NCBI GenBank assembly: GCA_037138755.1
Contig: JBAXHT010000001.1
Coordinates: 1,335,805 to 1,399,804 of the forward strand
Reading direction: 5' to 3'
DNA: 64,000 bases
DNA from: Armatimonadota bacterium
Lineage (GTDB): Bacteria > Armatimonadota > Fimbriimonadia > Fimbriimonadales > Fimbriimonadaceae
The number at the start of each line of letters is the position of its first letter. Positions within the stretch are counted from its first letter, which is position 1. Below the pieces are notes generated by a model. It was not told the DNA's origin. It saw only the letters and a list, made by a program, of their open reading frames with translations, and searched no databases. Shown here one piece after another: positions 1,642 through 59,662 of this stretch. The position numbers and the translations under genes were made by a program.

Positions 1642-1647
1642 TATACT
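1642..1647 (+). promoter_or_regulatory. -10 hexamer TATACT, leaderless-type promoter
   Basis: TATACT ends 8 bases before the ATG at 1656 and there is no Shine-Dalgarno, so transcription would begin at or next to the start codon. The same arrangement recurs at many genes in this window. Confidence 0.5.
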
Positions 1648-1655
1648 AGTCAAGT

Positions 1656-2249
1656 ATGGACGGCGAATACAGCAAGCTGGAAAAGGACTTCCTTGGCAAT
1701 GAGCGGATGGTTCATTACAACTCGGACGGAGTTGCCGTTTCCGCCAGCCGTGTTGAGCGAGCCGAGGATGGGTCGATGACGGTCGGTGAGCCGATTCCTC
1801 TTTCCACCCAATCGCAACCGACCCAAGTACCGGTCCGGCCGACTACAGATGCTGGGCCAGGAAGTTATCCTCCTGGAACCGTCGCCACGATCGGTATTGC
1901 GTCTTTTGTCTTGGCTGCCCTAGCAGCTTTGTTCATCATCAACTCAAACAAGTCGGATTCGCCGGCCGAGCGGTTTAATACTGCTGTCTACCGTGATCCT
2001 GTTCAGGTGCAACCGCGAACCGAAAACTTGGAAGATGTTCCTCCGCCTAGAGAGTACGACAGCCCCCAGCCCAGGCAAGAGGATGAAGTGCCTCCTGGAG
2101 ACCCAACAAGGCCAAGAATTGATATTCGAAACGAAGAGCCCGAAGTTCTTGAAAAGAAACCTGAGCCTACTCATGACAAACCCGATCCAGAGCCGAAGAA
2201 AGGGTCAGACCCAATTGATCTACGGGGCGATGGCGACGAATCCCGGTAA
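1656..2249 (+). CDS. single-pass membrane protein with Pro/Glu-rich tail, unknown function
   Basis: 197 residues. An N-terminal soluble part (MDGEYSKLEKDFLGNERMVH) of ~70 residues precedes one membrane helix at about residues 75-95 (TVATIGIASFVLAALAALFI). A low-complexity tail rich in Pro, Glu, Asp and Arg follows. I recognise no domain. The N-terminal segment with its glycine/valine turn could be a small beta module. The ATG at 1656 is preceded by a TATACT hexamer 8 bases upstream. The next gene starts 18 bases after the stop on the same strand and is also membrane-anchored, so the two may act together at the envelope. Confidence 0.75.
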   Translation: MDGEYSKLEKDFLGNERMVHYNSDGVAVSASRVERAEDGSMTVGEPIPLSTQSQPTQVPVRPTTDAGPGSYPPGTVATIGIASFVLAALAALFIINSNKSDSPAERFNTAVYRDPVQVQPRTENLEDVPPPREYDSPQPRQEDEVPPGDPTRPRIDIRNEEPEVLEKKPEPTHDKPDPEPKKGSDPIDLRGDGDESR

Positions 2250-2267
2250 CATTGACAACACAAGATC

Positions 2268-3104
2268 ATGGTAGCCATCGGAATTGCGTCGTTTCTCATT
2301 GCGAATCTTCAGCAAAAGCTTGAGACAAAGTTATCCGATCTAAAACCGGTCACTCAAGCAGCCGGAACTGGGCAGATCGAAAAGAATGATGCCTTCTCGA
2401 TCGGCGGAGTTGTCCTCTCCGAGGGAATGCTCTTTACACCAAAGAACGCTGGAGATAACAACGAGCAAAAGGCGACGCTGGTGTACTCAATCCCCGCCAA
2501 TACAACTTCGTTTCGAGCCTTCTTCGGGATACCCGACGGCTATCCGACCGCATGGCTCTCAGCCAGCTTGGCGGTTTCGGTCGATGGTGAGCTCGTCAAG
2601 CTGTACGAAGCTCAATCAGATTCAAAGCCAATCAAGATAGAAATCCCAACCAAGGGCGCGAAGTCGCTCAAGTTGGTCTTCAACGGCTACTCTGCGCTGG
2701 GAGATAGCGTTTTTTCTTCGCTCGCGTCGAAGCCCTCCGAACAAATTCCAAAGCCGGCTGTGGATACAACTGGCCTCGCCCGAGTCATTCTCACGGCCCC
2801 GGAGAACGGTGACAAGACTAAAGATAAGCTTGTTGTTAAGTGGGATGCTATCTCTGAAGCAATCGCCTATGGTGTCGAAATAGTTTTGGTCTCTAACAAC
2901 TCGAAGACGGTTCCGACTCGGTTTCTTCGATCCTTTACAGCCAAAGGAACTTCCTTTGAGTGGGTCTTTTCGGAGGATGTCGTATCTGGCGAGTACCAAG
3001 TCAGTGTGATTGCATTTAGCAAAAAGGGAGTTCTGAGTCGCTTCAGCGCGAGCAAGCGATTTACGGTGGAGCGAAGAACGGCTACAAAGCCCGGAAACCA
3101 ATAA
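2268..3104 (+). CDS. membrane-anchored beta-domain protein with C-terminal FN3-like domain, unknown function
   Basis: 278 residues starting at ATG 2268 with a short hydrophobic stretch (VAIGIASFLIANL) that may be a signal anchor. Residues ~35-160 (GGVVLSEGMLFTP, YSIPANTTSFRAFFGIP, LVFNGYSALGDSVF) have the pattern of an NPCBM-like carbohydrate-binding jelly roll. Residues ~168-270 (RVILTAPENGD, LVVKWDAISEAIAYGVEI, EYQVSVIAFSKKGVLS) read as a fibronectin type III fold. No catalytic motif is visible. It lies 18 bases after the preceding membrane protein gene, probably in one transcript, and upstream of a substrate-binding lipoprotein. Confidence 0.65.
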   Translation: MVAIGIASFLIANLQQKLETKLSDLKPVTQAAGTGQIEKNDAFSIGGVVLSEGMLFTPKNAGDNNEQKATLVYSIPANTTSFRAFFGIPDGYPTAWLSASLAVSVDGELVKLYEAQSDSKPIKIEIPTKGAKSLKLVFNGYSALGDSVFSSLASKPSEQIPKPAVDTTGLARVILTAPENGDKTKDKLVVKWDAISEAIAYGVEIVLVSNNSKTVPTRFLRSFTAKGTSFEWVFSEDVVSGEYQVSVIAFSKKGVLSRFSASKRFTVERRTATKPGNQ

Positions 3105-3148
3105 TCTCCTGACCTTGTTCTGGTAATCAGGTGTGGTTTCAAGCCACA

Positions 3149-4000
3149 ATGAATGTTATGCGCAGGCACTTGCTTGGACTACTGTTGCTCTCATCCCTCT
3201 CGTTTACTGGATGTGATAAGGCGACGACAGTCTCTGTCCCCATGCGGGGCGAGAGACTTCAGCACATCGTTAGTTTGAGCCCTGGAACGACAGAGATCCT
3301 CGCCACAATTGCCGTCAATTTTGAAGGCAGAACCAAGGCGTGTGATTTTCCGGACATGGTGAAGTCAAAGCCAATTTACGGAGATTTGAAACCGGACTTT
3401 GAGAAGATCACTCTGGACAAGATCCAACTCGTGGTGGTAGACGCTGATCTCTACTCCGAGGAGGATAAAACAAAGCTGAAGTCGACTGGTGCGAAGATAT
3501 TTGAGTTCAAAGCTACAACGGTTTCCGATCTTGAGAAGGAGATGCTCACGCTCGGTAGCCTTGTTGGCAGCGAAACGAATATCCAGGTTTATGTTGACCG
3601 AATCCGGCGAGAGCGCCGGGCTGCGGAAGGAGATTCTCCCTCTCCAAAACCAAAAGCAGTTCTGATCCTTCCTGGATCGGGTGGGACTCATATGATTGCG
3701 GGTGTGAAGTCTTTCCAAGCAGATTTGCTCAAGATAATTGGTGCTGAACCTGTTGGACCCGAATCGAGTAAGTTCGAAATGCTGACTCCTGAGTTTCTGT
3801 TTCAAGCTAACCCTGATGTGATTATCGTTGCTGGAGAAGCTAAATCCTTCCTGGCAGACACTCGCTTTTCAAACCTCGCAGCCGTTAAGGGTCTGAAGAT
3901 TTTCGGAAACAAGCAAGACATGTGGGTTCGCCGTGGGGGTCGTATTGACACTCTTATTGAGCAAGCCCACAAAGCCTTGATGCTCGTGGTGAAGAAGTAA
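3149..4000 (+). CDS. ABC transporter substrate-binding lipoprotein, BtuF/FecB-like
   Basis: About 283 residues. A lipoprotein signal (MRRHLLGLLLLSSLSFTGC) ends in a lipobox with Cys, so the protein is probably anchored on the outer face of a membrane. The mature part has the class III periplasmic-binding signature: IVSLSPGTTEILATIAV near the start, then DFEKITLDKIQLVVVD and PEFLFQANPDVIIVAG. That family binds vitamin B12, heme or siderophores; the ligand cannot be told. No permease or ATPase gene is adjacent. I prefer ATG 3149 or 3158 to the GTG at 3131 because the signal peptide starts there. Its stop TAA shares one base with the next ATG (TAATG), implying coupling to mtnP. Confidence 0.8.
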   Translation: MNVMRRHLLGLLLLSSLSFTGCDKATTVSVPMRGERLQHIVSLSPGTTEILATIAVNFEGRTKACDFPDMVKSKPIYGDLKPDFEKITLDKIQLVVVDADLYSEEDKTKLKSTGAKIFEFKATTVSDLEKEMLTLGSLVGSETNIQVYVDRIRRERRAAEGDSPSPKPKAVLILPGSGGTHMIAGVKSFQADLLKIIGAEPVGPESSKFEMLTPEFLFQANPDVIIVAGEAKSFLADTRFSNLAAVKGLKIFGNKQDMWVRRGGRIDTLIEQAHKALMLVVKK

Positions 4001-4848
4001 TGAATCAACGCGCAGAAATCGGAGTTTTCGGTGGATCTGGCTTCTACAGCCTCCTCAAGGATGTCGAGGAAGTCAAAATTGACACGCCTTATGGCGCGCC
4101 AAGCGACGCTGTCTTCCTTGCGACCGTAGCTGGCCGCAAGGTAGCGTTCTTGCCCCGCCACGGTCGGCACCACACACTGCCGCCCCACAAAATCAACTAT
4201 CGGGCGAATGTCTGGGCGATGAGATCGCTCGGTGTCCAGGCGATCATCTCGCCGTGCGCAGCGGGTTCCCTTCAAGCTCATGTTGCACCAACCCACTTCG
4301 TCGTCTGCGACCAGTTCGTAGATCGGACCAATGGTCGAGCCGACACTTTCTACGACGGCCCAATCGTCACTCACGTCTCACCCGCAGACATGTACGACGC
4401 GACCCTCCGCAAGCTCGCCGTCGAAACCATCCGCGAGAACGGAATCACCTGCCACGACGGCGGAACCGTTGTTGTCATCCAAGGACCTCGCTTCAGCACC
4501 AAGAGCGAGTCCAAGTGGTTCCACGACCAAGGCTGGGAAGTCATCAACATGACCCAATACCCCGAGGCATACCTTTGCCACGAAATGGGAATGGCGGTTG
4601 TCAACATCTCGCTCATCACCGACTACGACAGCGGCGTCCATGCCGGAGCCGAAGCTGTGAACGCCCATGACGTCCTCAGCGTATTCAAAGAGAACTCAGA
4701 GAAGATCAAGAAGGTCGTTCTGGACATGATCGGAAAGATGCCTTCCGACCTAACCACCCTCGGACACCGAGCCTCGCTGGCGTACACTCGAGGCGACGGA
4801 CACGCAACCTCGCCCAACGATATTCGTCTATTTGAATTGCTGGACTAA
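4000..4848 (+). CDS. mtnP: S-methyl-5'-thioadenosine phosphorylase
   Basis: 282 residues, the usual length. It splits methylthioadenosine with phosphate into adenine and methylthioribose-1-phosphate, which clears a by-product of polyamine and SAM use. Visible family motifs are GVFGGSGFYSL at the N-terminus (phosphate site), FLPRHGRHHTLPPHKINYRAN, then SPCAAGSLQ, and VINMTQYPEAYLCHEMGM (substrate Met/Glu region). TDYDSG carries the two Asp residues typical of MTA phosphorylases, where purine nucleoside phosphorylases have Asn. The start overlaps the stop of the lipoprotein gene by one base. A gene for adenosine deaminase near 60 kb would act on related nucleosides. Confidence 0.93.
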   Translation: MNQRAEIGVFGGSGFYSLLKDVEEVKIDTPYGAPSDAVFLATVAGRKVAFLPRHGRHHTLPPHKINYRANVWAMRSLGVQAIISPCAAGSLQAHVAPTHFVVCDQFVDRTNGRADTFYDGPIVTHVSPADMYDATLRKLAVETIRENGITCHDGGTVVVIQGPRFSTKSESKWFHDQGWEVINMTQYPEAYLCHEMGMAVVNISLITDYDSGVHAGAEAVNAHDVLSVFKENSEKIKKVVLDMIGKMPSDLTTLGHRASLAYTRGDGHATSPNDIRLFELLD

Positions 4849-4851
4849 CCT

Positions 4852-7080
4852 ATGCTTTCGACCCTCATCGCCCTCTCGTCGCTAACGCTTACTCAGGTTT
4901 CGGGAGGCCAGGGGGAAAGTGTTTTTCCGAAACCGGTGGCGCGAAATCCGGAGGTGCTGACGGACCGGAGCATTTTTCAGTACCTCACGGACTCGACGAA
5001 TGACATCTCTCGCACCACGAGTGAGGAACAAGATTGGTCTGCGCTCAAGCTAGTCGCTCCCAAGGTGACAGCAGTAAAGCTGCGCGTGCTGATGCTCGTT
5101 TTTGAGCGCGACTTCACGAATCCCAGGATCAGCAACACTCTGGAGCTATCTGACAAAACTCGACTGGTGCAGTCAATGTCGCGAATCAGAGCTTTTTTCT
5201 CGTCGATGTCCGCTGGAGAATTGGATATCGAAGTCATCCCGCGATTCATCTCTGAGCCAATTTTCTTTGACTACGAAGCAAAGGAGATCTTGGAGAAAGA
5301 GTTTAACCAGTCGAAGTTTGACGCTGACGATCGTGAGGAGAGGGGACCATTCGACTCCGTTATAGCGATTTCTAGTTCAAATGGAAAAATTGGTTTCTCT
5401 AGCGACTTTTCATCTCTATCAGGCAACTCTGACACAGTTCTACTCGAACAGAATTTAGTTCGAACGGTGTGCTGGTCTTTCCGAGATAACTTGTTGCGTA
5501 GGTACAAGGAGGCTCCTGTCTCGATGGAGGTAGCAGCAAGAACTTCTCCATTCAACTACCCTAATCAGTGGCCAAGCCTTCGCAAATCGGTAGACTCACG
5601 TCTATTCAGCAAAACGTTCCGTTCGGATAACGAGTCCGTCCTGCGCGGAACATCTGCATTTGGTGCTCAATCTGAGTTCCAGAGTAACGAGCCAACGACA
5701 AGCGTTTCGGGCTCGGTCAATGTACTTTCCGTGGATGGTGCGCTGGTCTACACCGAATCGGCAATCATCAGAAACGGAAGAGTGAAGATACCTGGTTGGC
5801 CCGTCGGAATATTGGAATTCAAAGTCCGAACGAAATCTTCAAACCCTGTCTCGTTCCGGTATGTGAGTCCAACCGCTGGTGCCGAAGGCGGTCCAGAGGT
5901 CAAAGATGTCACCATCGGAGTAGGTGCCTCTATTCCCATAACGCCAGACGGTACATGGCAAACCGTTCGCGTTGGTCGTGCCGACGGGAAATCACAACAT
6001 CTTACATTCGGTGTGCCCGCCGAGTTCAATGGCGTTACTCGTGACCCCCACGAGGTGGTCAAGTACGAGTTCAAAGAGTTCAAAATTGTGTCCGACGCGC
6101 CGAATCCGGTTACTCCGCCAAAGACTTGGAATTTGGACACCTCGGAAGGGATTGCGCAGGCCCTCACCTCGGCACGAACTGAGATAAAGCGGAATGCGCT
6201 AGCACAAGTTCTTTCCGATCCTGATAAATTCAAATCCCTCCAGCCCAAGCTCCTAGAAATGTCGACCGAACTCGAACCCGCCGTCGCCTTCGGCGCCGTC
6301 CATGCCTACGGCCGAATCGGAATCGCGAACGACGACCTGATCGGCAAAGCCTTCATGAACCGCCTCGTTGCCACCGCGCCAAACGAGTACGCCCGCGAGG
6401 CCGCTCTCCTCTACTTCGCCGAGCACCCCGAACAGACCACTTTCGAAGCCATCGCTCCTAATATCGTTCGCCGCAGCTGGCGAACGAGGATCGCAACAGT
6501 GAAAGCCCTTGCCGCGCTGGACAGGACCGAGCTCAAGGCCAAGCCCGCCGCTAGGCAGCTCCTCCTAACTGCCACGGGGCAGGATATGGCGATCATCCGC
6601 TCCGCCGCCCTCGCGATGATGAAGCCTGAGGTTGAACTTGAGCGAAAGCAGCTCGAATACTCCCTGGTCAACGATCCTTCGGAGCAAGTCCGGCTTCAGT
6701 GCCTCAAACAACTCGCGGCGGCTAACGCCTCCAAGGAAGTCCTCTTCGGGTCCCTTGCCGACGACAGCCCATACGTCAGGGAACATGTCTATGAGCAACT
6801 TCCAGTAAGTCTTCAGCGTGAGGCACTCCAGCGCATGGTGATCGACCGAGACACCTATGTCCGAGCGGCAGCCCTTTACGGTTTCGCCAAACTTTCAGAA
6901 TCAACACAATCAGGTGAAATTCAGAACACGTTTGCTGAGGAGCATCCTGCGGTTCTACTGGCTCTGGTCGAAGGCGCCCAACGTGGAAAGTGGAAACTTC
7001 CCGCAAACGTGATCGAAAATGCCAAGAAAAGCAAGAGTCCACTGGTGCGAGAGGGCGCAGCGAAGTTAGCACTGCAATGA
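4852..7080 (+). CDS. secreted protein with C-terminal HEAT-like repeats, unknown function
   Basis: 742 residues starting 3 bases after mtnP. The first ~20 residues (MLSTLIALSSLTLTQVSGG) are a signal peptide. Residues ~70-230 resemble the front part of secreted metallopeptidase-like proteins (VLMLVFERDFTN, FDSVIAISSSNGKIG) but I see no HExxH. Residues ~275-400 look like a beta-sandwich domain (VSGSVNVLSVDGALVYTESA). From ~430 to the end are helical pairs of HEAT type (ALTSARTEIKRNALAQVLSD, LLEMSTELEPAVAFGAVHAY, YVREHVYEQLPVSLQR). Base composition shifts to C-rich at about 6240, where the HEAT part begins in earnest. The stop overlaps the rpiB start as ATGA. Confidence 0.65.
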   Translation: MLSTLIALSSLTLTQVSGGQGESVFPKPVARNPEVLTDRSIFQYLTDSTNDISRTTSEEQDWSALKLVAPKVTAVKLRVLMLVFERDFTNPRISNTLELSDKTRLVQSMSRIRAFFSSMSAGELDIEVIPRFISEPIFFDYEAKEILEKEFNQSKFDADDREERGPFDSVIAISSSNGKIGFSSDFSSLSGNSDTVLLEQNLVRTVCWSFRDNLLRRYKEAPVSMEVAARTSPFNYPNQWPSLRKSVDSRLFSKTFRSDNESVLRGTSAFGAQSEFQSNEPTTSVSGSVNVLSVDGALVYTESAIIRNGRVKIPGWPVGILEFKVRTKSSNPVSFRYVSPTAGAEGGPEVKDVTIGVGASIPITPDGTWQTVRVGRADGKSQHLTFGVPAEFNGVTRDPHEVVKYEFKEFKIVSDAPNPVTPPKTWNLDTSEGIAQALTSARTEIKRNALAQVLSDPDKFKSLQPKLLEMSTELEPAVAFGAVHAYGRIGIANDDLIGKAFMNRLVATAPNEYAREAALLYFAEHPEQTTFEAIAPNIVRRSWRTRIATVKALAALDRTELKAKPAARQLLLTATGQDMAIIRSAALAMMKPEVELERKQLEYSLVNDPSEQVRLQCLKQLAAANASKEVLFGSLADDSPYVREHVYEQLPVSLQREALQRMVIDRDTYVRAAALYGFAKLSESTQSGEIQNTFAEEHPAVLLALVEGAQRGKWKLPANVIENAKKSKSPLVREGAAKLALQ

Positions 7081-7508
7081 AGATTGTCCTTGCATCCGAC
7101 CACGCAGCCCTAGACCTCAGGGGATACCTGAAAGACAAACTGGAAGCCGCTGGGCATCAAGCCACCGAAGTAGGGGCGCTAACTACCGATGCCTACGATT
7201 ACCCAGACGCAGCCGACGAACTTGCCAAAGTGCTGAACGATCACGATTTTGGTATTGTCATTTGCGGAACCGGAATTGGCATCAGTATCCGAGCCAATCG
7301 ATACACCCAAATCCGCGCGGCACTCTGTACCACCGAATATATGGCCGAGATGGCTCGTGAGCACAACGATGCCAACGTCCTGGCTCTCGGAGCCAGAGTT
7401 CTCGGCACCGAGCAGGCGTGGGCAATCACCAAAGCGTTTCTCAGCGGAAAACCTAGTGAAGTCCCGAGGCATAAAGCTCGCGTCGAGAAGCTTGGCGCGC
7501 CAATCTGA
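7077..7508 (+). CDS. rpiB: ribose-5-phosphate isomerase B
   Basis: 143 residues. It interconverts ribose-5-phosphate and ribulose-5-phosphate in the non-oxidative pentose phosphate pathway. RpiB/LacAB family features are KIVLASDHAALDLRGYLK at the start, DYPDAADELAKVL, the active-site ICGTGIGISI (Cys base), and AREHNDANVLALGARV with the conserved His. The ATG at 7077 is the first residue of the family alignment and overlaps the TGA of the upstream gene (ATGA). An in-frame ATG at 6990 would add 29 residues lying inside the HEAT gene and is rejected. Confidence 0.93.
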   Translation: MKIVLASDHAALDLRGYLKDKLEAAGHQATEVGALTTDAYDYPDAADELAKVLNDHDFGIVICGTGIGISIRANRYTQIRAALCTTEYMAEMAREHNDANVLALGARVLGTEQAWAITKAFLSGKPSEVPRHKARVEKLGAPI

Positions 7509-7510: not shown

Positions 7511-7516
7511 TAGAAT
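7511..7516 (+). promoter_or_regulatory. -10 hexamer TAGAAT before the S41-like pair
   Basis: TAGAAT lies in the 16-base gap after rpiB and ends 8 bases before ATG 7525. No Shine-Dalgarno is present, so this may be an internal leaderless promoter for the two peptidase-family genes. Confidence 0.4.
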
Positions 7517-11838: not shown

Positions 11839-11844
11839 AGTTTA
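11839..11844 (-). promoter_or_regulatory. -10 hexamer TAAACT for the permease operon
   Basis: Read on the minus strand this is TAAACT, ending 6 bases before the GTG start at 11832, with no Shine-Dalgarno between. Confidence 0.5.
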
Positions 11845-17033: not shown

Positions 17034-17039
17034 ATTCTA
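17034..17039 (-). promoter_or_regulatory. -10 hexamer TAGAAT for the asparaginase-like gene
   Basis: ATTCTA on the plus strand is TAGAAT on the coding strand, 7 bases before the ATG at 17026; there is no Shine-Dalgarno. Confidence 0.5.
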
Positions 17040-17150: not shown

Positions 17151-19109
17151 ATGTCAACCAAGACTTCAAAAAGCACTTTCAACAAGCTCAAGTTCCTCAA
17201 ACTGATGATGCTCTCCCGTGAGGGGGATCGCCGCGAAGGAATCTTGCTCCGACAAAGCAAGGGCTGGTTCCAAGTCTCCGGAATGGGCCACGAAGCACTT
17301 GGCGCGCTTGCCTACTTACTCCGAGAAGACGACTATATCTTCCCCTACTACCGCGACCGTGGCTTGATGCTGGCTCGAGGACTCACCAACAAAGACCTCG
17401 CCCTTGCCTACTTCGCCAAGCGTGATGGAAGCAGCGGCGGCCGCCAGATGCCCGGGCACTACAGCAGCCGACCGCACAACGTTTTCAGCGTCTGTACGCT
17501 CACCGGTGGCAACTGTCTTCCGGCCTGCGGAACCGCTTGGGGAATGAAGATGGACGGCAAGGACAGCGTCGCTATCGCCACCATTGGAGACGCGGCGGCT
17601 CGGCAGGGCGAGTTTTATGAAGCTTGGGCTTTTGCCATTCAAGAAAAGCTTCCCGTCGTTTTTGTGCTGGAAGACAACAAGTACGGCATCTCAACTCCGA
17701 CCGAGAAGTTCATGCCGTTCCACCTCGGATTATTCGAATCAGAAGCTGTCGTCAAAGTCGATGGTCGGCATCCGGACAACATCCTAGAAGCAGGTCGAAC
17801 TGCCATCGAGAAAGCTCGTAAAGGCGAGGGGCCAACCATGATCTGGCTCGACATCGACCGCCTTTCCTCACACACATCTAGCGACGATCACCGGGTCTAC
17901 CGCGATCTGAACGACATCGAAGAGATGCAGCTCCGCGATCCGATTCGACTCCTTTCCGAGGAACTCCTCAAGTCCGGAGAACTCACCGAAGCCGCATTCC
18001 AGGCGATGCAAGATGAGGTCTTCAAGGAAGTCGACGAAGACTATATTGCCGCAGAAAAAGCCGACGATCCGATCAGCGAAGAAACCATGCGCGATTGTTG
18101 GGGCGACGAGGTTGATGCAGAGGCTCCGCCGATCACCGCCGGACGTCAAACCATGGTCTCCGCAATCAACACTACCTTCCGAAAAGCCCTCGAAAATGAT
18201 CCCAAGATCGTCTTCTTCGGCGAAGACATCGAGGACCCCAAAGGCGGCGTTTTCGGCGTCACCAAGGGTCTCAGCGAAGCATTCCCCAAGCAAGTTTTCA
18301 ATTCACCACTTGCGGAAGCAACGATCATGGGAGTCGCTGTTGGCTTGTCAGCCTACGGATGGCGACCGGTCTTCGAACTCCAGTTCATCGACTTCATCGC
18401 TCCTGGCTGGAACCAGATCACTGGCCAAATGTCCACCCTCCGCTGGCGAAGCTTTGGTGAATGGAAGTGTCCGCTCGTGATCTACGCCCCTTACGGTGCG
18501 TACCTGCCGGGCGGTTCGCTGTGGCATAGCCAGAGCAACGAAGGCTCCTTGGCTCACGTCCCGGGTCTGCGAGTCGCCGTTCCGAGCACCCCGCAAGACG
18601 CCGCCGGACTCCTCTGGAGCGCAATCCACGGTGACGACCCCACCTTCGTTCTCGTTCCGAAGCACATCTTCCGAATGCAAATCGAAGTCGAGAACGTCGA
18701 GCCGGTTCCGTTTGGGGTTGCGAATGTCGTTCAAGAAGGCTCCGATGTCACGATCGTCAGCTACGGTAACACGATGGAACTCGTCCACGAAGCCGCTGCC
18801 AAGAGTGGCGTGAGCTGTGAGATCATCGACCTCCGGTCAATCGTTCCGTGCGATTACGAGACCATTACCGAGTCCGTCGCAAAGACTGGAAGGTTGGTCG
18901 TCGTTCACGAGGACACCAAGACCTGCGGCTTCGGACAGTCGATCATCAGCGAAATGGTCAGCGTGCCTGAGAGATTTAATCTCTTCCTTTCGCCACCTCA
19001 ATTGGTCTGCCGTGACGATGTCCACATCGGCTACAACCCGATCTATGAATACGCTGCTTTGCCTGACGTTGATCAAGTGATTTCCGCGATCAACGTTGTG
19101 ATGGAATAA
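17151..19109 (+). CDS. 2-oxoacid dehydrogenase E1, fused alpha and beta subunits
   Basis: 652 residues. It is the thiamine-diphosphate decarboxylase component of a pyruvate or branched-chain 2-oxoacid dehydrogenase complex. The alpha half (~1-310) has GHEALGALAYLLREDDYIFP, the TPP motif GDAAARQGEFYEAWAFAI ending in NKYGIS, and SSHTSSDDH. The beta half (~325-650) has ITAGRQTMVSAINTTFRKAL, FFGEDIEDPKGGVFGVTKGL and FNSPLAEATIMGVAVGLSAY, with the C-terminal transketolase-like domain ending in GYNPIYEYAALPD. Fusion into one chain is known in several phyla. E2 and E3 genes are not in the window. A Shine-Dalgarno-like CTAAGG precedes the ATG and a TAAAAT at 17095-17100 suggests a ~45-base leader. 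Substrate is not resolved. Confidence 0.9.
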   Translation: MSTKTSKSTFNKLKFLKLMMLSREGDRREGILLRQSKGWFQVSGMGHEALGALAYLLREDDYIFPYYRDRGLMLARGLTNKDLALAYFAKRDGSSGGRQMPGHYSSRPHNVFSVCTLTGGNCLPACGTAWGMKMDGKDSVAIATIGDAAARQGEFYEAWAFAIQEKLPVVFVLEDNKYGISTPTEKFMPFHLGLFESEAVVKVDGRHPDNILEAGRTAIEKARKGEGPTMIWLDIDRLSSHTSSDDHRVYRDLNDIEEMQLRDPIRLLSEELLKSGELTEAAFQAMQDEVFKEVDEDYIAAEKADDPISEETMRDCWGDEVDAEAPPITAGRQTMVSAINTTFRKALENDPKIVFFGEDIEDPKGGVFGVTKGLSEAFPKQVFNSPLAEATIMGVAVGLSAYGWRPVFELQFIDFIAPGWNQITGQMSTLRWRSFGEWKCPLVIYAPYGAYLPGGSLWHSQSNEGSLAHVPGLRVAVPSTPQDAAGLLWSAIHGDDPTFVLVPKHIFRMQIEVENVEPVPFGVANVVQEGSDVTIVSYGNTMELVHEAAAKSGVSCEIIDLRSIVPCDYETITESVAKTGRLVVVHEDTKTCGFGQSIISEMVSVPERFNLFLSPPQLVCRDDVHIGYNPIYEYAALPDVDQVISAINVVME

Positions 19110-20450: not shown

Positions 20451-20867
20451 ATGAAAGTTTCAGTCGAATGGAAAGGCGACCTCACTTTTGAAGCAACCGC
20501 CCCGAGTGGCGTGCCATTCATCATGGACGCCTCCCACAACGAGAACGCACCCGCAAAGGGCCCAACGCCGCTTGAAGTTATGGTCGGCTCTCTCGCTGCC
20601 TGCTCAGCCGTTGATGTCGTCGGAATCCTTGCCAAAAAACGCCAAACCGTCGAAAGCTACCGAATCGAAGTCGTCGGCGAGCGTCCCGAACCGGGCACCT
20701 ACCCCCGCCCGTTCACCGCCCTCACCGTCCGCCACATCCTCAAAGGTCCAAATCTCGACCCCGCCGCCGTCGAGCGAGCCGTCCAACTCAGTGACGAAAA
20801 ATACTGCTCCGTAGCCGCCACGCTGCGCCAGAACCCGACGATTTCGACAGAAGTTGTGATCGGTTAA
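20451..20867 (+). CDS. OsmC family protein
   Basis: 138 residues. OsmC/Ohr proteins are small dimeric thiol peroxidases. Visible are the N-terminal strand KVSVEWKGDLTFEA, the helix start GPTPLEVMVGSLAACSAVDVV with one Cys, and the second Cys in LSDEKYCSVAATLRQNP. The pair has the spacing of the YhfA-type subgroup, so peroxide reduction is likely but not proven. A good Shine-Dalgarno (AGAAAGGA) lies 5 bases before ATG 20451; an upstream in-frame start at 20361 would add 30 unconserved residues and is rejected. Confidence 0.87.
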   Translation: MKVSVEWKGDLTFEATAPSGVPFIMDASHNENAPAKGPTPLEVMVGSLAACSAVDVVGILAKKRQTVESYRIEVVGERPEPGTYPRPFTALTVRHILKGPNLDPAAVERAVQLSDEKYCSVAATLRQNPTISTEVVIG

Positions 20868-24483: not shown

Positions 24484-26331
24484 TTACGCCTCAAGCTCGG
24501 CAAGAACGTCTTTTAGTTCAGTCATCATGTCCGGGTTTTCGTTGACAACCGCCCGAACTTGCTCAGCGATCTGCTTCGCTTCATCGGTGTGCCCCGCTCG
24601 CTTTGCAGCAAGGCCGAGGTTAATAAACACACCGAAACTCTGCTGATTCTGCGAGAACGCGAACTGCATGAACTGCCAAGCATCTTCGTGCTTGCCCTGC
24701 CCGTTAAGCGACTCTCGGTACTCGCCGTAGGCTGGTTCGCAGCCAGGATACATTTCAAGCAATCGTCGAGCCGCGTCTTCGGCTTCGACGTGATCGCCGA
24801 TTCGGTTGTACGCCGATGCAAGCATCGCCCACATCTTCCAGTAATCGGCAAGCCAGTTGCGGAGTGGTTTAAGGTCGCGAATCGCACCTTCAGCATCTCC
24901 AGCGGCTAACTTTTCGCCTGCAGCCTGAACGCTTTCTATCCGCTTCGGCTGCTCCAGTTCGATAAGCCAAGCAGTTGCCTGGGCCTTGGTGTTCGGATCT
25001 GGATTCGCCTTCAGGACGTTTTGCAGTACCGCAGGAATCTCAAACTCGCGGTCGGCGGCCTGGAGAGTCTGAGCGTATTCAAGCAACAGCGGAACATCGG
25101 CCGGGGCGACATCAATGACGTCCTCGTAGAAGTCCATCGCTCGGTCCAAATCCTCGTTTTGTGCCAGATAAGGAGCATAGAACCGCTTAACCAAAACGTT
25201 TTCTTCGACGCTGACAATGGCATGCTCGAACGCCTTCTCGCCGTCGGATTGGCGACCGTTTTGAATCAGGGAGATGGCGTACTTTGCGTGAAACTCCGGA
25301 TTCTGCGGATGCGCATCGACCAGTTCTTTCCAAAGCGCAGGAACTTCGTGACCCCGACCGGTCGCGTTCAATACTCCGACCAAGAAGTCCATTGAAGGTT
25401 TGGTCTCATCCTCAAGCTCAATCGCTCGCTTAAAGTTGCGCTCGGCATTGACGAACATGTTCATCGACGCCTGAGCATTGCCGAGGCGATTCAAAATCCC
25501 CGGATCATCGGCTTTGAGCTGAGCCGACTTTTCGAAGAAATCGACCGCTTTTGCGGCATCGTTTGCCGCTTGGTGAAGCTCACCAAGTGCGAAGAATGCA
25601 CCAAAGTCGTCTGGAACGAGCTTGGTCGCTTTGTTCAGCGCTCCTTCTACAAGTTCAAAGGTTCCGATCTGGTACTGCGTGCAAGCTCGGCATAGTCCAA
25701 CCAGCACTTGGTACGCCCCTTCAAACTCCTTGTCAAGCTCGATGGCTTCGGCTAAGGATTCAAGAGCGCCCTCCGGAGAAAACTCCTGGGCCACGAGGCC
25801 GTTGGCCTGCTGGATGTAGTTCAGAGCATCGTAACCCTCAAGGAACTTGAGGAAGCAAGCCGCGCTGTCGGTGCCGAACTCCATCGTCTCTCCCGCCAGA
25901 AACTCGGGGAGCCCGATTTGGGCTTCATCAGCAAGTCGCTTGACCATTTTGTGGAGAACGGTAAAGATCTGCTCGTCCGTAAACTTGTGGACTTCGGTGA
26001 CGCCACCTGCCAAGTCATCTTTCTTGGTATAGCGAACCGTAATCTCGTGGCCGCCATCGGCGGCGGCAATCGAGCCGTCCATCGAAACATCAACCCCGGA
26101 CTGGCTAAACAAATCGCCAAGCTGATCGGCTTCGAGGAGCCCGTCCCCAATATTCACAAAAGCGGTACGGGCAACCCCGCCCTGTTCGACTTGGGTCAGG
26201 AAACTCACGGACTGAACATCAGCTTCTCCGTGGCTACGAAGTTGGTCTGCCACGAAAGCGGAAATTTGGCGCCCGAGCTGGGGCTTTGCGCCCTCTCCGG
26301 CATTTAAGGGCAAAACTGCAACTTTCAACAC
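24484..26331 (-). CDS. tetratricopeptide repeat protein
   Basis: About 615 residues from GTG 26331. Residues ~1-150 form an N-terminal alpha/beta domain (KVAVLPLNAGEGAKPQLGRQ, VDVSMDGSIAAADGGHEITV) like those that sense or score outer-membrane or regulator inputs. The rest is at least eight TPR units (AIELDKEFEGAYQVLVGLCR, FGAFFALGELHQAANDAAKA, PGILNRLGNAQASMNMFVNA, LDRAMDFYEDVIDVAPADVP). A longer frame to ATG 26442 would run over the conserved tdh N-terminus. A TAAACT hexamer 7 bases before GTG 26331 supports the shorter start. It leads the run with the FAPNP protein, HTTM and recN. Confidence 0.8.
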   Translation of the reverse strand: MLKVAVLPLNAGEGAKPQLGRQISAFVADQLRSHGEADVQSVSFLTQVEQGGVARTAFVNIGDGLLEADQLGDLFSQSGVDVSMDGSIAAADGGHEITVRYTKKDDLAGGVTEVHKFTDEQIFTVLHKMVKRLADEAQIGLPEFLAGETMEFGTDSAACFLKFLEGYDALNYIQQANGLVAQEFSPEGALESLAEAIELDKEFEGAYQVLVGLCRACTQYQIGTFELVEGALNKATKLVPDDFGAFFALGELHQAANDAAKAVDFFEKSAQLKADDPGILNRLGNAQASMNMFVNAERNFKRAIELEDETKPSMDFLVGVLNATGRGHEVPALWKELVDAHPQNPEFHAKYAISLIQNGRQSDGEKAFEHAIVSVEENVLVKRFYAPYLAQNEDLDRAMDFYEDVIDVAPADVPLLLEYAQTLQAADREFEIPAVLQNVLKANPDPNTKAQATAWLIELEQPKRIESVQAAGEKLAAGDAEGAIRDLKPLRNWLADYWKMWAMLASAYNRIGDHVEAEDAARRLLEMYPGCEPAYGEYRESLNGQGKHEDAWQFMQFAFSQNQQSFGVFINLGLAAKRAGHTDEAKQIAEQVRAVVNENPDMMTELKDVLAELEA

Positions 26332-26378
26332 GGCTTTCAGTTTACCGGGCAGGGGCGTTGCCAAGTACAATGATCGCC
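26332..26378. promoter_or_regulatory. 47-base divergent promoter with two leaderless-type -10 hexamers
   Basis: AGTTTA at 26339-26344 is TAAACT on the minus strand, 7 bases before GTG 26331. TACAAT at 26366-26371 is 7 bases before GTG 26379 on the plus strand. No Shine-Dalgarno is found on either side. Confidence 0.55.
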
Positions 26379-32437: not shown

Positions 32438-32443
32438 TAAGAT
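32438..32443 (+). promoter_or_regulatory. -10 hexamer TAAGAT before the 140-aa gene
   Basis: TAAGAT begins at base 32438, at the end of the upstream gene, and ends 6 bases before ATG 32450. No Shine-Dalgarno is visible. Confidence 0.45.
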
Positions 32444-33992: not shown

Positions 33993-33998
33993 TAACGT
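33993..33998 (+). promoter_or_regulatory. -10 hexamer TAACGT before the esterase gene
   Basis: TAACGT fits TANNNT and ends 7 bases before ATG 34006, in a 94-base gap between divergent genes. Confidence 0.4.
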
Positions 33999-41720: not shown

Positions 41721-41726
41721 AGTATA
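41721..41726 (-). promoter_or_regulatory. -10 hexamer TATACT for the DUF1385-gltX run
   Basis: AGTATA on the plus strand is TATACT on the coding strand, 7 bases before ATG 41713, with no Shine-Dalgarno. Confidence 0.55.
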
Positions 41727-41935: not shown

Positions 41936-42136
41936 ATGGAATCTCTGACAAACAGAGGACTGAAGCTCACCGAGGACGAAGCATTCGCACTGTTGGGACT
42001 TTGTTTAACCAGCCCTGGGCCGGTTGATGAAGCGACAGCGGTTGCAATGCGGAAACTGGCGGCGTATTGTTCGCAAAGAAGCGAAAAGAGCAATTATCCA
42101 ATCAATCTAAATACAGCAGCCGTTGCACCGAGGTGA
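41936..42136 (+). CDS. small acidic-helical protein, 66 aa, unknown function
   Basis: 66 residues (MESLTNRGLKLTEDEAFALL, GLCLTSPGPVDEATAVAMRK, then LAAYCSQRSEK). It would form two or three helices, with no membrane segment. It has the best Shine-Dalgarno in the window (AAGGAGG, 7 bases before ATG) and its own strong terminator 15 bases after the stop, so it is a true monocistronic small gene, probably well expressed. I recognise no family. Confidence 0.75.
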   Translation: MESLTNRGLKLTEDEAFALLGLCLTSPGPVDEATAVAMRKLAAYCSQRSEKSNYPINLNTAAVAPR

Positions 42137-53920: not shown

Positions 53921-53951
53921 TTGACAAAACCCCCGTTTCATTGCCTATAAG
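53921..53951 (+). promoter_or_regulatory. promoter before the terminase-like gene
   Basis: A perfect -35 TTGACA (53921-53926), a 19-base spacer and TATAAG (53946-53951), only 3 bases before ATG 53955. The start codon is at or next to the transcription start, as in other leaderless genes here. Confidence 0.5.
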
Positions 53952-53954
53952 TGC

Positions 53955-55229: not shown

Positions 55230-55268
55230 GAAGACTCAAGACTCAAGACTAAATACTAAAGACTCCTC

Positions 55269-56783
55269 TCAGCCCCTCTCCCGGTACTGAACCGCTTCCG
55301 CCAAATGAGCCTTCCTAACCTGCTCCGACCCATCCAAATCCGCAATCGTCCGCCCGACCCGCAAAATCCGGTCAAAAACCCGCCCCGAAATACTCATCCG
55401 AGCCGCCACCGCCCGCATAAACTGGTCGCACTCCTCGTCCAAGACCACCATCTCCCGAATCTCCCTCGGCGTCATCTTCGCGTTCACTCTCGCCCCACCC
55501 AACCGAGCCCCCTGCAGCTCCCGCGCCGCAACAACCCGCTCCCGAATAGCAAAAGAAGCCTCCCCCGGCTCCTTATCCATCAGCTCATCCGGCTTCAACC
55601 GAGGCACCTCGAGGTGAATATCAATCCGGTCCATCAACGGCCCACTAATCTTGCTCGCATACTTGCTACAAGACGCCGGATTCGAAACGCACTTCTGCTC
55701 CGGCAACCCCCGAAACCCGCAAGGGCAAGGATTCATCGCCCCAATCAAAATACACTCCGCAGGAAAAGTCAGAGTATTGCTCACCCGAGCAACCGTAATC
55801 ACCCCATCCTCCAAAGGCTGCCGCAAAGCCTCCAAAACCGACCGATCAAACTCCGGCATCTCGTCCATCAACAACACCCCAAAGTGCCCCAAAGAAATCT
55901 CCCCCGGCTTAGGATTCTTCCCCCCACCCACAATCGCCGCATGCGATGCCGAATGGTGAGGCGACCGAAACGGCCGCTCCCAAACCAACCCCTCCCGAGC
56001 CCCCTTTTGCCCTGCCGAGGAATGAATCCGAGTCACCGCAATCGCCTCTTCCAGTTTCAACGGAGGCAAGATCGTCGGCAATCGCCGCGCCAGCATCGTC
56101 TTCCCTGAACCCGGAGGACCAACCATCAAAACGTTATGCCCACCCGCCGCCGCGATCTCCAGCGCCCGTATCGCGTGCTTCTGCCCTTTTACATCGCTGT
56201 AATCAACTTCGTAGTGAGGCAGTCGAACATCTTCGCCATCATCAAACACCACCGGTCCAACGAGCAAGGACCCATTCAAAAGCTCAACCGCTTCGAGCAG
56301 ATTCCGAACTCCGTAGACCTCAACGCCCACTGCAACTGCTGCCTCGCGAGCATTTTGATGGGGCATGATCAGCCTCCGGAAGCCTTGTTCGAGTGCCATC
56401 AACGCCACTGAAACCGCTCCATCTACCAGCCGCATTTCGCCGTCCAGACCCATCTCTCCTATGATGAGAGTGGATTCTAACTCGGAGATTGGCAAGACGT
56501 TGTTTGCGGCAAGAACCGCGATAGCAATCGGCAAATCCAGGAACGGCCCTTCCTTTCGCAGGTCCCCTGGAGCTAGGTTGCAGAGCACTCGCTTATAGGG
56601 AAAGTCCAGCCCGGAGTTCTTGATCGCCGTCCGAACCCGCTCTTTGCTTTCTCCGACTGCCTGATCCGGCAGGCCGACCAGGGTGAACATCATCTTCTCA
56701 ACCGCGGGTTGGAGGTCAACTTCGATCACAATCGGCAACGCCTCAATCCCGTTCAGGGTTGCGGAGTGGGCTTTGGCGATCAT
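55269..56783 (-). CDS. comM: YifB/ComM family Mg-chelatase-like AAA+ ATPase
   Basis: 504 residues. ComM is a helicase that helps branch migration during natural transformation. The N-terminal Lon-protease-like domain (SATLNGIEALPIVIEVDLQP, FTLVGLPDQAVGESKERVRT, IIGEMGLDGEMRLVDGAV) is followed by the AAA+ domain: Walker A MVGPPGSGKTMLARRLPTIL, RPFRSPHHSASHAAIVGGG, Walker B GVLLMDEMPEFDRSVLEAL and the Cys-rich segment MNPCPCGFRGLPEQKC. The 3' 900 bases are strikingly C-rich on the plus strand, while the 5' 600 are not. Confidence 0.94.
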   Translation of the reverse strand: MIAKAHSATLNGIEALPIVIEVDLQPAVEKMMFTLVGLPDQAVGESKERVRTAIKNSGLDFPYKRVLCNLAPGDLRKEGPFLDLPIAIAVLAANNVLPISELESTLIIGEMGLDGEMRLVDGAVSVALMALEQGFRRLIMPHQNAREAAVAVGVEVYGVRNLLEAVELLNGSLLVGPVVFDDGEDVRLPHYEVDYSDVKGQKHAIRALEIAAAGGHNVLMVGPPGSGKTMLARRLPTILPPLKLEEAIAVTRIHSSAGQKGAREGLVWERPFRSPHHSASHAAIVGGGKNPKPGEISLGHFGVLLMDEMPEFDRSVLEALRQPLEDGVITVARVSNTLTFPAECILIGAMNPCPCGFRGLPEQKCVSNPASCSKYASKISGPLMDRIDIHLEVPRLKPDELMDKEPGEASFAIRERVVAARELQGARLGGARVNAKMTPREIREMVVLDEECDQFMRAVAARMSISGRVFDRILRVGRTIADLDGSEQVRKAHLAEAVQYRERG

Positions 56784-56798
56784 GCGTATAGTTTGCCG

Positions 56799-57449
56799 TC
56801 AGCGGTTGGCAGTTTGCAGTTTTTTTTCGGGTGGGGGTACGAATTTGAGTTCAAGATCGCAGGCGACGTCCTCGGTACCGCCTTGCATCCGAGTCTTGGG
56901 GATTCGGAGCTTGAGAAGTTCTGGGAAGGGAAGTTTTGCATTCCAGATTGCGGTTCCGACGATTTTCGGCTGACTCTGTGCCCGATAAGTGATTTGATCC
57001 ACGCGAATCTTGTTGTGGACGGAACGAACGACCGCAACTGCGCCCGCCGTCATCGACTCCGTTTCGTCCATAAACTCGGAAATCCAGTCACCTCGATCTG
57101 AATCTCGGTCACGAATGGATCGCAACACGCGCTGGAAAATGCCTTCAACGGGACCTCTTTCGGGCGGCGAAAACGCTACAGATCCGTTCGAAAACAACGT
57201 CCATTTTCGCTCTGAAGGAGCGGCTTTGTAATCCGTCACAATCCGCTGACCGTCCACAGAAGTTGCGATCAGTTTCTGGACAAACGTCAGTTGGATTGCT
57301 TTCGGTTCGACTTTATCCACCCGAATACGCAACGACTCCTCGTTAGCGAGGTCAGTGTCTGCGTTGGTAAACCGTGACGTCAGGGTGTAGTCCCAGAACT
57401 GTCCTTCCTTCATCACAGGAAGCAATACTAATGCAGCAATCAGAGTCAT
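56799..57449 (-). CDS. secreted hypothetical protein, 216 aa
   Basis: 216 residues with a short signal-like start (MTLIAALVLLPVM). It reads as a beta-rich domain (FWDYTLTSRFTNADTDLANE, IQLTFVQKLIATSVDGQRIV, IRVDQITYRAQSQPKIVG). No family recognised. It overlaps the upstream septum-initiator-like gene by 4 bases and ends 15 bases before comM, so all are probably one transcript from pyk. Confidence 0.65.
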   Translation of the reverse strand: MTLIAALVLLPVMKEGQFWDYTLTSRFTNADTDLANEESLRIRVDKVEPKAIQLTFVQKLIATSVDGQRIVTDYKAAPSERKWTLFSNGSVAFSPPERGPVEGIFQRVLRSIRDRDSDRGDWISEFMDETESMTAGAVAVVRSVHNKIRVDQITYRAQSQPKIVGTAIWNAKLPFPELLKLRIPKTRMQGGTEDVACDLELKFVPPPEKKLQTANR

Positions 57450-57724
57450 TTCAGAGGAGTCTCTCCGGGTGGAACCCAGCCGGCTTTTCGGGCTTTCTCT
57501 TCCATCTCCAAAGGATTAGTCGCTTCACGACTCTTTTCGGATTCCTGGATTTCAGATTCTTTAAGAGATTTGATCTCCTTTCGCATTGCGCTCGCCTTCG
57601 CTTTCTGGTCGCCATACATTAGCCAAGGTCCACGGGCGGCAAAGAGTCCGGCCGCTACCGCCAGGATAATCACGATGGGAAGGAACAGCCCTTTCTTCTT
57701 TTTTCGGGTTCGCCGCCGGTTCAT
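57446..57724 (-). CDS. FtsB/DivIC-like septum formation initiator
   Basis: 92 residues. A basic N-terminus (MNRRRTRKKKKG), one membrane helix (LFLPIVIILAVAAGLFAA), a heptad coiled coil (AKASAMRKEIKSLKESEIQE) and a conserved-type tail NPLEMEEKARKAGWVPPGET, matching the DivIC/FtsB pattern of ...NPxxIExxAR..G...PGE. It would act in the divisome with FtsL and FtsQ. It overlaps pyk by 4 bases (ATGA). The assignment rests on architecture and the tail, not on strong identity. Confidence 0.72.
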   Translation of the reverse strand: MNRRRTRKKKKGLFLPIVIILAVAAGLFAARGPWLMYGDQKAKASAMRKEIKSLKESEIQESEKSREATNPLEMEEKARKAGWVPPGETPLK

Positions 57725-59115
57725 TTCACAACCTGGGTCATGATCATATTCGTGTTTCCGGCTTTGCCAGCTGGAACCCCGCCGGTGAGAATGACGAGGT
57801 CGCCGGAGTGCAGGCAACCGTTCGCGCTAAAGGTTTCGACCGCTTCCGCCATGACGTCGTCCGTCGAAGAAGGCTGAGGCACCAGCGTGGCCTGAACTCC
57901 CCAGACCACAGCCATGTAGGCAACAGTCTCAGGGCGCCAACTCGCACAGAGAATCTTTGCCTTTGGTCGAAACTTTGAAACCAATCGGGGGGTTTGCCCG
58001 CTTGTCGAGGTGGTGACGACAGCGGAAGGCACAAGCTGACGCTCGAGAATGGCGACGGCTGCAGCAATTGCCTCTGTGTGCTCCTCTGGGTCCTCTTTGG
58101 TGTATCGGTCGTAAATGTCGTCTCCAAGTTCGTACTCGGCTTCGAGAGCAATGCGCGCCATGACTCTGACGCACTCGATCGGGTACTGCCCAGCGGCAGT
58201 TTCGCCAGAGAGCATTACGGCGTCCGTCCCGTCGAGAACCGAGTTGAAGACGTCCGAAACTTCCGCACGAGTCGGGCGAGGGTTCGTCATCATACTCTCC
58301 AACATCTGGGTCGCTGTAATGACGGGGATTCCTGCTCGGCCGCAGTGCTCAATGATCCGCTTTTGGAGTCGAGGGACGTCTTCGATGTCCATCTGGAGGC
58401 CCATATCGCCACGGGCGACCATCACGATATCGACTTCTTCCATGATCGAATCGAGTTCACGAATCGCTTCGGGAGTTTCGATCTTAGCGCAGACCTTCAT
58501 CGTGGAGTGGTGCTTCTGGAGTTCCCACTTAAGGAGTTCGATGTCTTTTGCGTGCTTGACGTAGCTCAGGGCAATGAAGTCGCAACCGTAGTTGACGGCC
58601 TGCTGAACATCGTCGAGGTCCTTGATGGAAAGCGCCGGAACATTAAACGCTTGGCCAACCAACGTGATTCCTTTCTTGCTTTTGAGGTTTCCTCCTGTGA
58701 CAACGCGTCCTTTGAACCACTCACCGGACCTTTCTTCGATACGAATCTCGATTTCTCCATCACCCAGCAGGAGCTTCTCGCCTGGATCCATGACTTCAAG
58801 GATTTCATCTTGCTCGATTGGAAGCTCGGCTCCCTTGCCCATCGTGACAACTTGTCCAGCAACTAGGTCGAGACCATGAGTTCCGAGATCTCCGACGCGG
58901 AATTTTGGCCCTTGTAGATCAGCGAGGATTGCAACGGGAGCAGTCGTTGGGGAAAGTTCGCGGATCCATTCGATCCACCGGCCCTTGGCTTCCCAGTCTC
59001 CGTGGCTACAGTTCAGTCGGGCGACAGACATACCGGCTTCGATCAGTTCTTGAATCCGTTCTTTTGAATCCACTGCGGGACCCAGTGTGACCACTATTTT
59101 GGTTCGCCTATCCAT
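57721..59115 (-). CDS. pyk: pyruvate kinase
   Basis: 464 residues. It makes pyruvate and ATP from phosphoenolpyruvate. Motifs are TKIVVTLGPAVDSKERIQEL, SVARLNCSHGDW, ADLQGPKFRVGD, the active-site KVCAKIETPEAIRELDSI, IVMVARGDMGLQMD and TATQMLESMMTNPRPTRAEV, followed by VMLSGETAAGQYP. The C-terminal regulatory domain ends at about 464. It overlaps the septum-initiator-like gene and begins a four-gene run to comM. Confidence 0.96.
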   Translation of the reverse strand: MDRRTKIVVTLGPAVDSKERIQELIEAGMSVARLNCSHGDWEAKGRWIEWIRELSPTTAPVAILADLQGPKFRVGDLGTHGLDLVAGQVVTMGKGAELPIEQDEILEVMDPGEKLLLGDGEIEIRIEERSGEWFKGRVVTGGNLKSKKGITLVGQAFNVPALSIKDLDDVQQAVNYGCDFIALSYVKHAKDIELLKWELQKHHSTMKVCAKIETPEAIRELDSIMEEVDIVMVARGDMGLQMDIEDVPRLQKRIIEHCGRAGIPVITATQMLESMMTNPRPTRAEVSDVFNSVLDGTDAVMLSGETAAGQYPIECVRVMARIALEAEYELGDDIYDRYTKEDPEEHTEAIAAAVAILERQLVPSAVVTTSTSGQTPRLVSKFRPKAKILCASWRPETVAYMAVVWGVQATLVPQPSSTDDVMAEAVETFSANGCLHSGDLVILTGGVPAGKAGNTNMIMTQVVK

Positions 59116-59166
59116 AATGCTTCGCTTCCGTGCTGGCTTCGTTGAAACCTAGCCTAGAGTATGCCG

Positions 59167-59172
59167 TATCAT
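59167..59172 (+). promoter_or_regulatory. -10 hexamer TATCAT before the 160-aa gene
   Basis: TATCAT ends 7 bases before GTG 59180. AAAGGA between them could also serve as a Shine-Dalgarno, so a leaderless reading is less certain here. Confidence 0.35.
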
Positions 59173-59179
59173 AAAGGAC

Positions 59180-59662
59180 GTGGCGGAGCCTGTTTTAAGA
59201 TCAGGGGAAGATGTTGAAGCAATCTTAAAGATCGCGCTTAGAAACGAGCATGGCTCAGTGGACGAGTTGCGCGAACGCCTCGCTCGTTCGGCGGATGAGC
59301 TTGGAATCTCCCCGGAGGCCTTGGCCCAAGCGGAGGAGCAGTACCGTAAGGAAGCAAAAGTCGATAAGTACATGGCGGCCAAGCAAGCGGGTTTTCGTTC
59401 GAGCTTGATTACTTACGGGGCAATCACCGTTCTATTGAACGTGATCTACACGATCACAATGTTTGGCAAGTTTTATTGGCCGGGGATCGTTCTCGCCGCC
59501 TTCGGTGTCGCCATTGCCGGGCACTTTAATGAACTCCGACAGCGTCCAAGCTTATCTGATCGAAAGTTTCAGCTGTGGCTCCAATCGGGGGAGCCAACTT
59601 CGGTCGGTACGGACAGCGATGAGTGGGCGGACAAAGAAGCCCGCGAGCGACTCGAACGGTAA
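59180..59662 (+). CDS. 2TM-domain membrane protein, 160 aa
   Basis: 160 residues from GTG 59180. The first ~60 residues are helical and charged (SVDELRERLARSADELGISP, EALAQAEEQYRKEA) like the N-terminal part of SHOCT/2TM proteins. Two helices follow (SSLITYGAITVLLNVIYTI and WPGIVLAAFGVAIAGHF). Function unknown. It ends 12 bases before add and is probably cotranscribed with it. Confidence 0.7.
   Translation: MAEPVLRSGEDVEAILKIALRNEHGSVDELRERLARSADELGISPEALAQAEEQYRKEAKVDKYMAAKQAGFRSSLITYGAITVLLNVIYTITMFGKFYWPGIVLAAFGVAIAGHFNELRQRPSLSDRKFQLWLQSGEPTSVGTDSDEWADKEARERLER

Follow-up and report, generated by a model that had tools for sequence, protein, structure and literature searches.

Why should gene after gene in one stretch of bacterial DNA begin six to eight bases downstream of a promoter-like hexamer? 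The stretch in question (the window) comprises 64,000 nucleotides (nt) of an Armatimonadota genome (C1:1335805-1399804 of G000, 3.27 Mb in 20 contigs), and an original prediction had listed in it 13 hexamers fitting TANNNT that end 6-8 bases before an ATG or GTG start codon. All 13 fit TANNNT and lie where they had been placed. We put at about 90% the probability that these hexamers serve the main sigma factor as -10 promoter elements and that the resulting messages are leaderless or nearly so. Leaderless genes with a start-adjacent -10 box are well known in Deinococcus and mycobacteria. The lineage studied here is Fimbriimonas-like, Fimbriimonas being a member of the Armatimonadota, Fimbriimonadia and Fimbriimonadaceae. 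Six window genes have homologues in Fimbriimonas sp. D15.bin.35, a metagenome-assembled genome, at 75-98% identity, and for one window protein the same genome provided the sole relative among the matches listed (61% identity).

Thirteen start-adjacent boxes in the window

With the spacer defined as the bases between the end of TANNNT and the start codon, the 13 sites have spacers of 6 (five sites), 7 (six sites) and 8 (two sites), followed by eight ATG and five GTG starts. The sites had also been described as lacking a Shine-Dalgarno (SD) sequence, which agrees with our inspection: the only SD-like words within 22 nt sit 12-17 bases from the start or, at 59180, 1 base from it. The putative -10 boxes and the genes that follow them are:

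1642..1647, plus strand: TATACT, spacer 8, ATG 1656; protein of 197 amino acids (aa) without Pfam family; spacer 8 retained in D15.bin.35
7511..7516, plus strand: TAGAAT, spacer 8, ATG 7525; S41 peptidase with PDZ domain; spacer 8 retained in D15.bin.35
11839..11844, minus strand: TAAACT, spacer 6, GTG 11832; ABC permease; spacer 6 retained in D15.bin.35
17034..17039, minus strand: TAGAAT, spacer 7, ATG 17026; asparaginase N-terminal family; TAGACT at spacer 7 in D15.bin.35
26339..26344, minus strand: TAAACT, spacer 7, GTG 26331; TPR protein, divergent to 26379
26366..26371, plus strand: TACAAT, spacer 7, GTG 26379; zinc alcohol dehydrogenase family
32438..32443, plus strand: TAAGAT, spacer 6, ATG 32450; 140 aa, without Pfam family
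33993..33998, plus strand: TAACGT, spacer 7, ATG 34006; esterase family
41721..41726, minus strand: TATACT, spacer 7, ATG 41713; DUF1385; spacer 7 retained in the same-genus genome G012
45453..45458, plus strand: TACAAT, spacer 6, ATG 45465; VapB-like antitoxin
46580..46585, minus strand: TAAATT, spacer 6, GTG 46573; 174 aa, without Pfam family; TAGATT at spacer 6 in G012
46589..46594, plus strand: TAGACT, spacer 6, ATG 46601; GHL10 glycosyl-hydrolase-like; back to back with the minus-strand box 46580-46585
59167..59172, plus strand: TATCAT, spacer 7, GTG 59180; 160 aa, without Pfam family; TATGAT at spacer 7 in G012

Genes were called with a small, self-trained program that uses dicodon scores and picks starts by coding score and start-codon identity, ignoring the upstream bases. 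Starts chosen in this upstream-blind manner had a box at spacers 6-8 in 10 of 58 window genes versus 1.96 expected (p 2.3e-5), and nine of these ten belong to the 13 sites above. The tenth, 19169 (plus strand, TANNNT at spacer 7), is an additional gene absent from the original list. At 26331, 26379, 45465 and 59180 the listed start was not returned with a box by this run, and these starts rest on the choice made in the original prediction; an earlier upstream-blind run gave the 59180 start but not those of 26331, 26379 and 46573, and in place of 45465 it picked 45450, in the same frame.

Orthologs were compared for eight of the 13 genes; in the nearest relative each of the eight has its box at an unchanged spacing. 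The 11832 gene also has a more remote homologue, in G117 (55% identical), and this one has no box. The VapB-like antitoxin gene is followed by a PIN-domain gene (45691-46059), and the pair together with its box spans 45453-46059.

Genome-wide position, conservation and competing explanations

The sample, drawn entirely from contig C1, comprised the window and 40 further stretches of 20 kb and amounted to 864 kb (26% of the genome) with 713 genes, those starting less than 120 bases from the end of a stretch being left out; background was taken from spacers 24-60. The positional enrichment anticipated for the genome as a whole was found as a sharp peak at spacers 6-7 (49-50 boxes at 6 and 28 at 7, among 713-714 genes), with TANNNT counts in the 713-gene set at spacers 5 to 12 of 11, 50, 28, 17, 31, 20, 17 and 18 against a background of 8.0 per position, or 1.1% per position per gene and 3.4% per gene for spacers 6-8. 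Among the 655 sampled genes that do not belong to the window, 85 had a box at spacers 6-8 versus 22.1 expected. Over spacers 5-12 the excess amounts to 17.9% of genes (95% bootstrap 14.8-21.8%). The original prediction assigned the boxes to single genes and the first genes of operons; these do show the excess (19.8% of 474 first-of-unit genes), and operon-internal genes show it too (14.3% of 239).

A de novo search by expectation-maximization for two motifs with free spacing returned GTAaACT (weight 0.34), with T1, A2 and T6 fixed and a weak middle, and an SD-like purine motif (weight 0.46), this solution being the best of six random starts, with the other five at poorer optima. The same caller was applied to two control DNAs. 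Escherichia coli K-12 (200 kb, 155 genes) gave no excess at spacers 5-12 (-4.1%, -8.9 to 1.0%), and D. deserti plasmid DNA (400 kb, 283 genes) gave a peak at spacers 6 and 7 (17 and 7 over 1.2) and an excess of 9.7%. About 60% of D. deserti genes are reported to be leaderless in the available text of PMC9031893, so the box excess undercounts them. The proposal that a large share of the genes is leaderless thus stands as a genome-wide signal, at about a fifth of genes and no majority. This fifth is a floor rather than an estimate, because the strict word misses divergent boxes, and the de novo figure is a third.

The same arrangement was recovered when gene calls were dispensed with. On both strands of the 864 kb, GTANNNT followed after 6 bases by ATG occurred 61 times versus a mean of 29.6, and the corresponding count for GTG was 48 versus 31.0, with no rise at neighbouring spacers (25 at spacer 7). 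TTG starts were not raised at spacer 6 in the same DNA when an 80-codon open frame was required (4 versus 8.4).

Conservation was assessed in 650,624 bases of G012. Among 127 aligned ortholog pairs, with pairs below 65% identity or 60% coverage excluded, 24 had a box at spacers 5-9. In these 24 pairs identity was 0.88-1.0 across the hexamer and the two bases that precede it, versus 0.58-0.83 across the 28 positions further upstream (3 to 30 before the box), and T, A and T were all retained in 21. As judged by conservation and composition, there was no -35 peak in the identity profile of the 24 pairs or in the base composition of 42 boxes. For the 46601 gene, nine of 12 orthologs within the family have a box at spacer 5-8.

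Genes with SD sequences coexist with these. Six window genes, at 17151, 20451, 41936, 44310, 45201 and 63378, had been presented as an SD-led contrast set. None has a box at spacers 5-12, and none of their orthologs has one at the aligned start. A well-placed SD is present only at 41936 (AAGGAGG) and 44310 (GGAG); at 20451 AAGGA lies 2 bases from the start, 17151 and 45201 have AAGG only, and 63378 is without an SD-like 4-mer. The SD excess was 14.7% of sampled genes versus 44.3% in the E. coli sample, in line with the 25% SD use given for Fimbriimonadia in the accessible part of PMC10783764. The anti-SD sequence GGATCACCTCCTT is present at C1:1011928-1011940, at the 3′ end of the sole 16S match (C1:1010432-1011941), and G000 is thus not among the organisms that dispense with it (16S 3′ end without CCUCC).

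These observations are most simply accommodated by a -10 element (consensus GTAaACT, read as TANNNT) that would be recognized by the main sigma factor, with transcription beginning on, or a few bases before, the first base of the start codon. Ribosomes would then start on a 5′-terminal AUG or GUG without SD pairing, a -35 element would not be used at these promoters, and the ordinary anti-SD that the lineage retains would serve SD sites at other genes. We considered whether a degenerate sigma factor might explain the missing -35 and rejected this: in G012 the best RpoD match is an ordinary sigma-70 protein that has regions 1.2 to 4, region 4 being intact, and that retains VTRERIRQIE as well as the H and E residues of VPVHTLE.

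A very unlikely alternative is that the hexamer acts in the mRNA, as an A/T-rich, non-canonical ribosome-binding site, rather than as a promoter element. The hexamer is placed as such a site would be, operon-internal genes share the excess, and non-SD sites are described for about 10.4% of bacterial species (PMC9581028, available text). Against this, the motif is the -10 consensus, in which T1, A2 and T6 are fixed and the middle is weak; the box abuts the start at 6-7, with gene-call-free counts falling on both sides; the anti-SD is normal; and in Deinococcus the same word acts as a -10 element that a ribosome-binding site cannot replace, according to the accessible text of PMC12340547.

It is scarcely credible that the chosen starts are wrong and that these are ordinary promoters, each with a normal leader and its true start codon further downstream. 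Starts were indeed picked by coding score and secondary boxes do occur at spacers 9-12, yet gene-call-free counts show the same peak, and all eight sites with orthologs have an identical start and spacing in the nearest relative. That the boxes are chance A/T-rich words in a 54% GC genome has next to no probability: loose as TANNNT is at its background rate, this is refuted by the positional peak over spacers 24-60 and opposed by the E. coli control and by a pooled ratio of 1.03 in 94 members of the phylum outside families f1, f13 and f22.

Several points weigh against interpreting the hexamers as -10 elements of leaderless genes. The leaderless state is predicted from the DNA sequence, and the measured shares hinge on the strict TANNNT word, on our own gene calls and on the start accuracy of the caller. 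Three of the 12 orthologs of the 46601 gene are without a box. Boxes far from the start were also retained between G000 and G012, in 25 of 43 cases at spacers 20-54 and in 10 of 12 at spacers 13-19; since these genomes share much of their upstream DNA in any case, box retention by itself carries modest weight. Some boxes, at spacers 9-12, imply a short rather than a zero leader. The prediction of leaderless genes is therefore supported with a refinement, namely a further set with very short leaders.

The architecture resembles that of Deinococcus-Thermus genes as described in the available texts of PMC12340547 and PMC3160421, where TANNNT lies about 6-7 bp upstream, no -35 is needed (in the present pairs none is conserved), GTG and ATG starts both occur, SD genes coexist and the arrangement is kept in relatives; in Deinococcus the housekeeping sigma factor binds the box, and expression depends on the box (PMC12340547). 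Like mycobacterial and actinobacterial leaderless genes (PMC3898074, PMC4633059 and PMC8485053, as far as their accessible texts go), the present genes have TANNNT, tolerate GTG and include a toxin-antitoxin operon (here the VapB-like gene at 45465). Unlike both, they belong to another phylum and are predicted from sequence; their box middle is AAC rather than that of the D. radiodurans TACACT form, and the genome, unlike those of Actinobacteria, has 54% GC. TA-led genes were found in 207 of 953 bacterial genomes from many groups by Zheng and others, and the list given in the available text (PMC3160421) does not name Armatimonadetes. Leaderless transcription is predicted for 21.6% of bacterial species in a survey (cited in PMC9581028) that may include a Fimbriimonas genome in its supplement. 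Among the matches listed from open-licence papers, we found no description of leaderless genes in Armatimonadota or Fimbriimonas. The architecture is known, and the lineage appears to be new for it; a lineage of Armatimonadota would thereby join the bacteria in which leaderless genes are numerous. Annotation tools that expect an SD site are likely to misplace gene starts in these genomes.

A second spacing peak at 9

The spacing of 9 was unexpected and is the part worth pursuing. Three window genes have boxes consistent with short leaders, newly listed here:

59660..59665, plus strand: TAAACT, spacer 9, ATG 59675; adenosine deaminase family; TAAGCT at spacer 9 in G012
61677..61682, minus strand: TAACTT, spacer 12, ATG 61664; FabH family; spacer 12 retained in G012
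63287..63292, minus strand: TACAAT, spacer 9, GTG 63277; YceD family, heading a yceD-plsX-fabH-like run; spacer 9 retained in G012

Gene-call-free counts of GTAVAMT-k-ATG in 81 genomes of the family were 1387, 1726, 986 and 669 for k=8, 9, 12 and 13, respectively, with a joint total of 2110 for k=10 and k=11. In 58 of the 81 genomes the count at k=9 was above that at k=8 (7 ties), and in 76 it was above the average of k=10 and k=11 (2 ties). At k=12 the count exceeded that at k=13 in 62 (9 ties), yet lay slightly under the mean of 10 and 11, and in G000 by itself k=12 (8) was under k=13 (15); spacer 12 is thus a shoulder, not a peak. Paired p values for these comparisons overstate the evidence, the family genomes being related. 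In the 14 genomes common to all searches, per-spacer sums were 413 (6 and 7), 240 (8), 289 (9), 182.5 (10 and 11) and 92.5 (26 and 27). Boxes were kept with their spacing in G012 in six of eight cases at spacer 9, five of six at 10, three of six at 11 and three of three at 12. D. deserti differs in this respect, with 27 boxes at 6-8 and seven at 9-12, versus 95 and 86 in G000 (raw counts, Fisher p 0.004).

Spacers 9 and 12 would imply leaders of about 3 and 6 nt. Tentatively, and with considerable doubt, we suggest that start codons in this family favour a whole-codon distance from the 5′ end set by the box, the leader being either absent or 3 or 6 nt long, so that translation would be measured in triplets from the 5′ end of the mRNA. 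A 70S ribosome entering at the 5′ end might accept AUG in the P site if the leader is just long enough to occupy the E site; alternatively, start codons may have shifted downstream in single-codon steps. Should RNA data confirm it, the peak would offer a direct test of how ribosomes choose starts near a 5′ end.

Three other causes of the spacer-9 peak were rejected. TAA or TAG in the box places an in-frame stop at spacers 6, 9 and 12, and the resulting bias in calling open reading frames is real in principle; the test was therefore repeated without gene calling, and the second peak was still seen. Leaky initiation at a near-cognate 5′-terminal codon finds no support in the counts, near-cognates occurring in 23 of 149 leaders at spacer 9 and in 15 of 97 at spacer 8, which is no difference (places listed only, about seven genomes, repeated strings dropped). 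A chance second ATG after a spacer-6 start does not account for the peak, since start codons stood there in only two of 19 cases.

Distribution in the phylum and compact divergent pairs

GTAVAMTN{6,7}ATG was counted without gene calls against the control GTAVAMTN{26,27}ATG in 121 Armatimonadota genomes, with p <0.001 as the threshold for a single genome. Family f1, presumably the Fimbriimonadaceae, gave 826 versus 185 and was enriched in all 14 genomes; family f13 gave 1053 versus 265, with six of nine genomes enriched, and family f22 310 versus 170, with one of four. The other 94 genomes gave 2770 versus 2677 and none was singly enriched at p <0.001. When pooled by family, f24 was raised (187 versus 119, p 6e-5), and f8 and f15 slightly. 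In the phylum sample the signal was strongest in two f13 genomes, G013 (313 versus 33) and G079 (283 versus 36), where it was about 8-9 times that at the control spacing. Called genes in 200 kb of G013 show the same peak, with an excess of 21.5%, and those in 120 kb of G062 from f22 (76 genes) show none. Families f1 and f13 thus look like two independent concentrations in one phylum, beside many signal-free families, and offer material on gain and loss of the trait.

Of 30 genomes compared, 15 had a best match to RpoD_Cterm (TIGR02393) that scored under the curated cut-off, namely 12 of 12 from f1 together with G013, G079 and G071; in the other 15 it scored over it. This score tracks the leaderless signal in part only: the f13 genomes G118, G093, G041 and G112 exceed the cut-off.

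Divergent genes are closely spaced in G000, with a median of 123 bp for 118 pairs, versus 245 bp for 27 pairs in the E. coli sample. Nine of the 118 pairs lie 20-35 bp apart, versus 0 of 18 in G117, 0 of 16 in G092 and one of 43 in eight other family genomes. In five of the nine, both genes have a box of their own, the two boxes overlapping or abutting and the starts lying 21-33 bp apart:

Window: 46573 (minus) and 46601 (plus)
L061: 1345 and 1367
L063: 16227 and 16253
L067: 1683 and 1709
L014: 5773 and 5807

Altered-spacing controls in 2.07 Mb of family DNA showed no clear enrichment of such arrangements (shared GTAC, 4 versus 0-3 at five spacings; shared TA, 33 versus 21-29). Bidirectional leaderless promoters were rejected as a general feature, compact pairs being rare outside G000 and the altered-spacing controls not clearly lower. 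Like the bidirectional promoters of E. coli and Salmonella described in the available texts of PMC12825309 and PMC10268837, the 46573/46601 pair has opposite-strand promoters predicted to share or abut their -10 elements; unlike them, the start codons themselves are here only 21-33 bp apart, in all five pairs.

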